Below are positions 43,312 to 45,131 of a DNA stretch of 64,000 nucleotides, piece by piece. The DNA comes from Spirochaetota bacterium. Its GTDB lineage: Bacteria; Spirochaetota; UBA4802; UBA5550. Location of the stretch: contig JAGNKX010000005.1 in NCBI GenBank assembly GCA_017999915.1, positions 1 to 64,000 of the forward strand, in the 5' to 3' direction. The notes beneath the pieces were generated by a model, which saw nothing but the letters and a program-made list of their open reading frames with translations, had not been told where the DNA came from and searched no databases. Position 1 is the first letter of the stretch, and each line of letters begins with the position of its first letter. The position numbers and the translations under genes were made by a program.

Positions 43312-43429
43312 CGACTGTTCAAATTATTAACCGGATGGACGGATTATTCAGAATGTATTACATTATGTCAATAATATTATTAATATTTTATTAAATTAAT
43401 GATAAAAATACACCGGTTGAAGAACCAAG

Positions 43430-43514
43430 GGGTCAGAGTAAATTATTTTTTGAGCCTGATTACCGATAACTATCGGTAATTTATATTCATAACCGATTTT
43501 TTAGGGGTCAGAGC
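43430..43514. repeat. Paired GGGGTCAGAG repeats flanking a palindrome
   Basis: AAGGGGTCAGAGTAAA (from about 43429) and TAGGGGTCAGAGCAAA (from about 43502) are direct repeats on either side of the 16-bp palindrome ACCGATAACTATCGGT at 43462-43477. GGGGTCAGAG motifs often flank IS200-like/RAYT transposase genes, but no transposase is present here, so this is at most a solo or remnant element. Confidence 0.5.
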
Positions 43515-43570
43515 AAAACTTATATCCAATAAAATATAACACTATTATAAAAATGAATAGTTTTTAATCA

Positions 43571-43724
43571 AGCAGTTTGCTGAAAAACAGCAAACTGCTA
43601 AGCGATACATGAATGTATCGCCATTTTTCGAGGCGTTAGACGAGAAAAATGTGAGGTTTTACGAATTCACTTCGTAAAACCGACCCTGAAAAACTCCAAG
43701 TAAGGAGTTTTTCAGGAAACTGCT
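43571..43724. repeat. Array of five hairpins enclosed by an 8-bp stem
   Basis: Consecutive hairpins: AGCAGTTTGCTG/CAGCAAACTGCT (43571-43599, 12 bp), CGATACAT/ATGTATCG (43603-43620, 8 bp), CATTTTTC/GAAAAATG (43622-43651, 8 bp), GGTTTTACGAA/TTCGTAAAACC (43655-43681, 11 bp) and CCTGAAAAACTCC/GGAGTTTTTCAGG (43685-43716, 13 bp). AAACTGCT at 43717-43724 can alternatively pair with AGCAGTTT at 43571-43578 and close the whole array. No frame is conserved through it. A related shorter element is at 52997-53043. Confidence 0.75.
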
Positions 43725-43832
43725 AGGAACCAACATTAAAAATAAATATAATCCTATTCTCTTGACAAATTGCTGATTCATGAATTACAAATAAAACCAC
43801 CTTATTATCAGAAATTTCGTCGGGGGATAACC

Positions 43833-45131
43833 ATGAGCAGAATTGATTCTCAACTGAAAGTAGAATCTTTGTTGCTACACGGAGGCCAGGAACCGGATCC
43901 AGCCACTGGCGCCAGGGCCGTTCCCATTTACCAGACAACATCCTATCAATTCAATGACGCCGATCACGCGGCCAATCTCTTTGCCCTGAAGGAGTCGGGC
44001 AACATATACACGAGGATCATGAATCCCACCACGGATGTCTTTGAAAAGCGCATGGCGGCCCTGGACGGCGGTGTCGGCGCCCTTGCCGTGGCCAGCGGCC
44101 AATCAGCCATCACGCTGTCGATTCTCAATATCGCCAGGGCCGGCGATGAGATCGTATCCGCCGACAATCTCTACGGCGGCACCTATACCCTGTTTCATTA
44201 CACCCTGCCGCGGATGGGCATTAAGGTGCATTTCGTGAAATCAAACGACCTGGACGCGATCCGTAGGGCGATCACGCCGGGAACGAAAGCGATCTACGCC
44301 GAATCGATCGGCAATCCAAAGCTTGACGTGGCCGATCTCGAAGGCATCTCGAAAATCGCCCATGGCGCCGGGATCCCCTTCATCCTGGACAACACGGTTT
44401 CGCCCTATCTCCTCCGGCCCTTTGACCACGGCGTGGACATCATTGTCTATTCCGCCACCAAGTTCATCGGCGGCCACGGCACCTCCGTCGGCGGCGTCAT
44501 CGTCGATTCGGGCGCCTTCGACTGGACCGGCGGCAGGTTTCCCCTCATCGCGGACCCGGAACCGAGTTACCACGGCATTCCCTTCGTGGAGGCGCTGAGG
44601 CCGGTGGGCAACATCGCCTATATTACCAAGGCCCGGGTCACCCTGCTCCGCGACATGGGGCCGTCCCTGTCGCCTTTCAATTCCTTTCTCTTCCTGCAGG
44701 GGCTGGAGACCCTCCACCTGCGCATGCCCTGCCACTCCCTGAACGCCCTGGCCGTGGCGCGGCACCTGGAGAAGCACCGGGCCGTCAGCTGGGTGAACTA
44801 TCCGGGCCTCGACTCGAGCCCGGAGCAGGGGCGGGTCGGGAAATACCTGGCCCGGGGAGCCGGGGCCCTGGTGGGATTCGGCATCAAGGGAGGCGTCGCC
44901 GCTGGCAAGAAATTCATAAATTCACTGCGGATGATATCGCACCTGGCCAACATCGGCGACGCCAAGACCCTGGCGATCCACCCGGCGAGCACCACTCACC
45001 AGCAGCTCTCGCCGGAGGAACAGCTCGCCACCGGCGTATTGCCCGACTACATCAGGCTGTCCATCGGCATCGAGCACATCGACGACATCATCGCCGATAT
45101 CGACCAGGCCCTTGCCGGGGCCGCGGGATGA
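43833..45131 (+). CDS. metY: O-acetylhomoserine sulfhydrylase-type PLP enzyme
   Basis: A 432-residue Cys/Met-metabolism PLP enzyme of the O-acetylhomoserine aminocarboxypropyltransferase group, making homocysteine from O-acetylhomoserine and sulfide. Motifs: [17 protein letters not shown] near residue 30, ASGQSAIT near 90, the PLP lysine in [18 protein letters not shown] near residue 210 and the C-terminal [17 protein letters not shown]. Its length (about 430) fits MetY rather than MetB/MetC (about 380-400). GGGGG precedes ATG 43833. I looked for a SAM riboswitch in the 560-bp upstream region and see none, only repeats. Confidence 0.9.

Follow-up and report, generated by a model that had tools for sequence, protein, structure and literature searches.

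A family of IS5-type MITEs with CsrA-type hairpin loops in a Spirochaetota bacterium

Among CsrA-sequestering RNAs, the best known are encoded by dedicated sRNA genes in gammaproteobacteria. CsrB/CsrC and RsmX/Y/Z consist of several hairpins with GGA in the loop. The loop recognised by RsmE is ANGGAN, with N variable (PMC7652899), and the RsmE consensus has been given as A/UCANGGANGU/A (PMC6849547). For CsrA, SELEX yielded the consensus RUACARGGAUGU, and most of the selected ligands contain four or fewer contiguous pairs (PMC7652899). The CsrA of Leptospira binds a GGA hexaloop, so the GGA code applies in the phylum of the spirochaetes (PMC8668096). The TwoAYGGAY RNA motif, a candidate whose name implies AYGGAY loops in its hairpins, similar to ANGGAN, is recorded from human gut, gamma-Proteobacteria and Clostridiales (PMC2864571).

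TD-2 RNA of Treponema (Rfam RF03162, in clan CL00124 with TD-1) is present in multiple copies per genome. Many spirochaetes carry at least 11-13 dispersed copies of it (L194-L225; G063, G074, G153, G183, G189, G275, G287 and others). In both outer hairpins the loop reads A-N-GGA-N, N being variable, which is the CsrA/RsmE code. MITEs mobilised by IS5-family ISs form a third group, that of small, non-coding, dispersed elements defined by terminal inverted repeats (TIRs) shared with an IS5 and by a 4-bp YTAR duplication. The family described here resembles all three groups. IS5 elements, MITEs and CsrA hairpins are each already known; what is new is a transposon with a CsrA-type hairpin array as cargo. 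A literature search for CsrA together with miniature inverted-repeat, run without the original TD-2 description, matched the Rfam 12 paper alone.

A hairpin array upstream of a metY-like gene

The array lies in a 64-kb window, the whole stretch of DNA that was analysed, and comprises the following features:

43569..43572, unstranded: target-site duplication at the left end, now CAAG through decay of CTAG (end 4-mers compared over 45 copies)
43573..43722, + strand: MITE in its short form, 150 bp excluding the duplications; + denotes the strand that carries the ANGGAN loops (copy alignment and copy search)
43573..43588, + strand: left TIR, CAGTTTGCTGAAAAAC
43571..43599, + strand: hairpin 1, arms 43571-43582/43588-43599, 12 bp, most copies having 14 bp; the left TIR forms its 5' arm
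43602..43621, + strand: hairpin 2, arms 43602-43610/43613-43621, 9 bp; family loop ANGGAN, here AUGAAU (GGA lost)
43622..43651, + strand: hairpin 3, arms 43622-43629/43644-43651, 8 bp; outer stem CATTTTTC/GAAAAATG
43655..43681, + strand: hairpin 4, arms 43655-43665/43671-43681, 11 bp; stem GGTTTTACGAA/TTCGTAAAACC
43685..43716, + strand: hairpin 5, arms 43685-43697/43704-43716, 13 bp; family loop ANGGAN, here AAGUAA (GGA lost)
43707..43722, - strand: right TIR, CAGTTTCCTGAAAAAC on the - strand
43723..43726, unstranded: right target-site duplication, CTAG
43833..45131, + strand: neighbouring gene outside the element, Cys/Met metabolism PLP enzyme (metY-like; Pfam PF01053, E 1e-128)

A preliminary description had placed five perfect hairpins here; all five are present, with stems of 12, 9, 8, 11 and 13 bp. 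The fold is far stronger than chance, as the minimum free energy (MFE) of 43550-43745 is -77.4 kcal/mol compared with -32.8 +/- 3.5 for 200 dinucleotide shuffles of the same segment (z -12.65). In other copies, hairpin 3 contains an inner GGC/GCC stem inside its outer stem. The same description had the last eight bases pairing with the first eight to close a multibranch fold. This pairing is possible, and it is the terminal inverted repeat, with arms of 18 nt that are 94% complementary. As an RNA helix the closure was rejected: it shows no covariation or compensatory change, and it is absent from the MFE fold because the first eight bases sit in hairpin 1.

Could the array be a riboswitch or cis-regulatory leader specific for metY? 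As first described, it lies upstream of metY, 106 nt before the metY-like gene, in the gap between that gene and a divergent TetR-type regulator gene. Both the proximity to a gene of Cys/Met metabolism and the strong fold would suit such a leader. The element, however, is bounded by TIRs and target-site duplications, its copies stand beside many unrelated genes, and a search of the whole window with Rfam gives no family at or above its gathering score, in line with the earlier remark that no known riboswitch motif is present. A metY-specific leader is therefore scarcely credible, and the proximity to metY is incidental, since other copies adjoin unrelated genes. The 64-kb window also contains no tRNA genes.

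Just left of the MITE, a direct repeat, AGGGGTCAGAGYAAA, occurs at 43428-43442 and 43503-43517 of the window, around the palindrome ATTACCGATAACTATCGGTAAT. Related motifs are found in G000:C15 near 77,000 (L057) and at G000:C6:65260, and they possibly represent another small repeat.

Copies, ends and IS5-type relatives

A 211-bp query region recovers approximately 21 near-full copies and several fragments from the 5.46-Mb genome to which the window belongs (the own genome, below). A covariance model of the element body raises this to 25 copies, and finds others in same-genus genomes, namely 19 in G004, 14 in G001, 4 in G003 and 4 in G013; the same model finds none in G002 and G005, which are also of this genus. 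Alignment of the copies shows abrupt divergence at both ends. The element is thus dispersed, short and non-coding with sharp boundaries, as is expected of a MITE.

The family TIR is CAGTTTGCTGAAAAAC/GTTTTTCAGGAAACTG, and both ends carry it in most copies. The four bases that flank each end are mostly TTAG, and the ends vary in step, as in a YTAR target duplication. Flanking 4-mers are identical in 23/45 copies (permutation p 0.013), while the next four bases outward are identical in 0/45. Flanks other than TTAG often agree as well (CTAG/CTAG, TTAA/TTAA, ATAG/ATAG); those of the 43573..43722 copy are CAAG/CTAG. An empty site corresponding to copy L136 is found in G003, where AATATTAGAATTGACA, with a single TTAG, aligns with AATA-TTAG-element-TTAG-ATTTGACA (the alignment around the site is of moderate quality). 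A TA duplication, of the IS630/mariner type, was considered first and rejected in view of the 4-mer matches and the relatives of IS5 type.

These relatives occur within the genus and beyond. In G003 (same genus), the same ends bound an element of 484 bp that has ATAG and CTAG flanks and contains a C-terminal transposase part, and in G002 (same genus) one end accompanies an N-terminal transposase frame of 219 codons. These IS remnants of the genus (L083, L086) have the TIRs of the MITE together with DUF772 and DDE domains. More distant relatives in the phylum, in G107 (with a full-length IS5 transposase) and G136, have related TIRs with TTAG/TTAG or CTAG/CTAG flanks, and exceed the cut-off of the NCBIfam IS5 model NF033581. 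A search of the own genome for a matching IS5-type transposase found none; unless a transposase is missing from the draft, the MITE is thus a relic in this genome. A transposase beside the end L047 (G020:C84:97455-97476) was rejected as a candidate, as this is one end only, with no partner TIR. This right end, exact over 22 nt, follows at a distance of 64 bp on a transposase fragment of IS256-like appearance by eye.

Because the copies are dispersed and share TIRs and YTAR duplications, and an empty site and IS5 relatives with the same ends exist, it is very nearly certain that the array at 43573..43722 is a copy of an IS5-type MITE, as the mobile repeat or transposition end among the options first raised had anticipated. 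MITE and IS have only their outer ends in common. Differently to other IS5-mobilised MITEs, the body is not an IS deletion product but a conserved, covarying hairpin array with CsrA-type loops.

The shares of copies in divergent, tandem and convergent gaps are close to those of YTAR sites (genes called with a simple codon-score caller). In 33 copies the nearest start codon is downstream in sense, compared with 18 in which it is on the other side (p 0.049), a weak sense bias. Preferential insertion into 5' leaders was therefore rejected, since gap shares follow the YTAR supply and the weak sense bias alone remains. Six copies (L004, L005, L039, L129, L139, L142), picked out post hoc, stand in sense orientation with a called start codon 11-23 nt further downstream.

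The family also varies in form. A longer subtype has two extra hairpins with CAGGAUG loops (five copies in G000 and at least two in G004). Minimal elements of 50-73 bp contain little beyond the two TIRs (L143, G000:C20:7568-7617; L147, G000:C1:308021-308070; L145, G000:C6:44388-44458), and L143 is a single long palindrome with the loop AAGGAG. In L142 (G000:C14:2377-2492), directly after a gene end, an unrelated hairpin (GCCCCGATAACATCGGGACGGG) replaces hairpin 1 and the left TIR; hairpins 2-5 are retained with compensated changes.

Covariation and the loop code of the hairpins

Covariation was assessed on 29 copies from four genomes, aligned over 56 stem pairs, and it is strong. Standard pairs make up 94.3% of the pair cells, a share that falls to at most 48% in slid controls. 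Compensatory changes on both sides occur in 16/56 pairs (48 cells), compared with a shuffled mean of 5.8 and no shuffle as high; the strongest covariation of all stems is that of hairpin 4. Among 21 own-genome copies, departure from the consensus is 2.1% at paired and 6.0% at unpaired sites. Within single own-genome copies, stem changes are mostly uncompensated (29 broken pairs, 6 G-U and 5 double changes), which suggests that the spreading lineages, and not each resident copy, are under selection.

Very strong palindromes are prone to arm-to-arm copying. Template switching between arms could thus yield compensatory changes and perfect stems by mutation, with no selection on RNA, and one own-genome copy (L134) does have an isolated compensated change. 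Such a mutational origin is quite improbable for the array, as the same single copies contain far more uncompensated than compensated stem changes, and as it leaves unexplained why A and GGA are fixed in the loops where the adjacent N positions are free.

The stems of hairpins 2 and 5 are unrelated, and their usual hexaloop is in both cases A-N-G-G-A-N. Positional entropies are 0.16, 1.88, 0.16, 0.52, 0.00 and 1.53 bits in hairpin 5 and 0.17, 1.10, 0.17, 0.46, 0.34 and 1.40 bits in hairpin 2; the A and the GGA scarcely vary, in contrast to the two N positions. GGA is present in 39/47 loops of hairpin 2 and 40/46 of hairpin 5. In one subfamily of G004 the loop is instead a pentaloop, AGGAA, with compensated stem changes. 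In young own-genome copies, GGA is clearly kept better than N in hairpin 5 (3/63 GGA sites changed vs 12/42 N sites); in hairpin 2 of these copies it is no better kept than the N positions (3 vs 2 changes).

This loop consensus is that of RsmE, and copy L136 contains an exact match to RUACARGGAUGU. The own genome encodes csrA, next to fliW. Two of the attributes expected with a CsrA-sequestering RNA, multiple A(N)GGA loops (at the family level) and a csrA gene, are thus found. Against a CsrA reading, the hairpin stems are long and stable, unlike those of most CsrA SELEX ligands. The family loops nevertheless appear to be the CsrA/RsmE recognition loop, and binding of CsrA by the family is likely on the evidence of sequence. 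That the MITEs constitute a CsrA-binding RNA family is held with somewhat more confidence than doubt. Since the conserved loops match the CsrA binding site, these MITEs may represent a regulatory RNA cassette that is mobile. Of the structured non-coding RNA first considered, the structure gains support from family covariation and CsrA-type loops, as read from sequence. In the 43573..43722 copy, GAA and GUA (GTA in DNA) replace the two GGA motifs, and it is the sole full copy seen with both lost. It is thus probably decayed and inert towards CsrA, and the conclusion on function concerns the family.

Alternatively, the hairpins of an IS5-type MITE could act only as DNA, as palindromes or as hairpins of a single strand that aid transposase binding or copying, the loops having no role in RNA. 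The inclusion of the left TIR with an inverted copy in hairpin 1, the overlap of hairpin 5 with the right TIR and the fully palindromic 50-bp elements L143 and L147 all fit this reading. Hairpins 2, 3 and 4, however, are not TIR-like yet covary, relatives have IS5-type ends without such a body, and A-N-GGA-N with a free N in unpaired loops is left unexplained. A role as DNA alone is thus unlikely, albeit less so than a mutational origin.

The favoured account is that of an IS5-moved MITE whose hairpin loops are bound by CsrA, which as a whole is judged moderately probable. An IS5-family DDE transposase would move the MITE in trans, recognising CAGTTT(G/C)CTGAAAAAC ends and inserting at YTAR. 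The + strand of the body encodes the string of hairpins, its structure maintained in the lineages that spread, and two hairpins (four in the longer subtype) present A(N)GGA(N) loops. Transcription of a copy could then come about within a leader or through read-through at the insertion site. The host CsrA dimer would bind the loops, so that the copy either subjects the adjacent mRNA to control by CsrA or titrates the protein. The 43573..43722 copy, as a decayed member devoid of GGA, most likely no longer takes part in binding.

TD-2 RNA and mobile CsrA sites

How does the family relate to the known RNAs? As in CsrB/CsrC and RsmX/Y/Z, several hairpins carry GGA in the loop, but the MITE is dispersed and transposon-borne and not one dedicated gene; its body model has no match in E. 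coli csrB/csrC. Nor does the MITE match TwoAYGGAY through Rfam.

In TD-2, the layout resembles that of the MITE, with an ANGGAN hairpin, a GTTTTGC-type hairpin and a CTGAAAAA..ANGGAN..TTTTTCAG hairpin, a likeness that either common descent or convergence on CsrA hairpins could explain. A body model built from MITE copies only (R1) recovers 20/20 TD-2 loci of the Treponema type, all on the correct strand and with 24-40 bits, and its best hit in 40 kb of background is 10.5 bits. The reverse model, from TD-2 to MITE copies, is weaker (14-30 bits, with most tested copies at 20-30 and the best background at 12). RF03162 itself scores 32.8 bits on the window, below its gathering score of 48.7, in an alignment that pairs other parts, and has no hit in the own genome at E <= 0.001. 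Unlike the MITE, the TD-2 copies that were read are without hairpin 3, and no IS5-type TIRs were seen in them. It is conceivable, though somewhat doubtful, that the IS5-type MITE and Treponema TD-2 are two branches of one class of transposon-borne, dispersed CsrA-binding RNA cassettes in spirochaetes. Such a class would spread ready-made CsrA sites through the genome, either as a mobile regulon or as a selfish CsrA sponge.

The joint modulation of CsrA by FliW and sRNAs in any species is still an open question (PMC7652899). If the account presented here holds, a transposon spreading CsrA-type hairpins in a spirochaete with csrA-fliW would be a concrete case in point. It would also give the Rfam TD-2 RNA, whose loops share the code, a candidate function in CsrA binding, and would offer a way for a global RNA regulon to expand through transposition.
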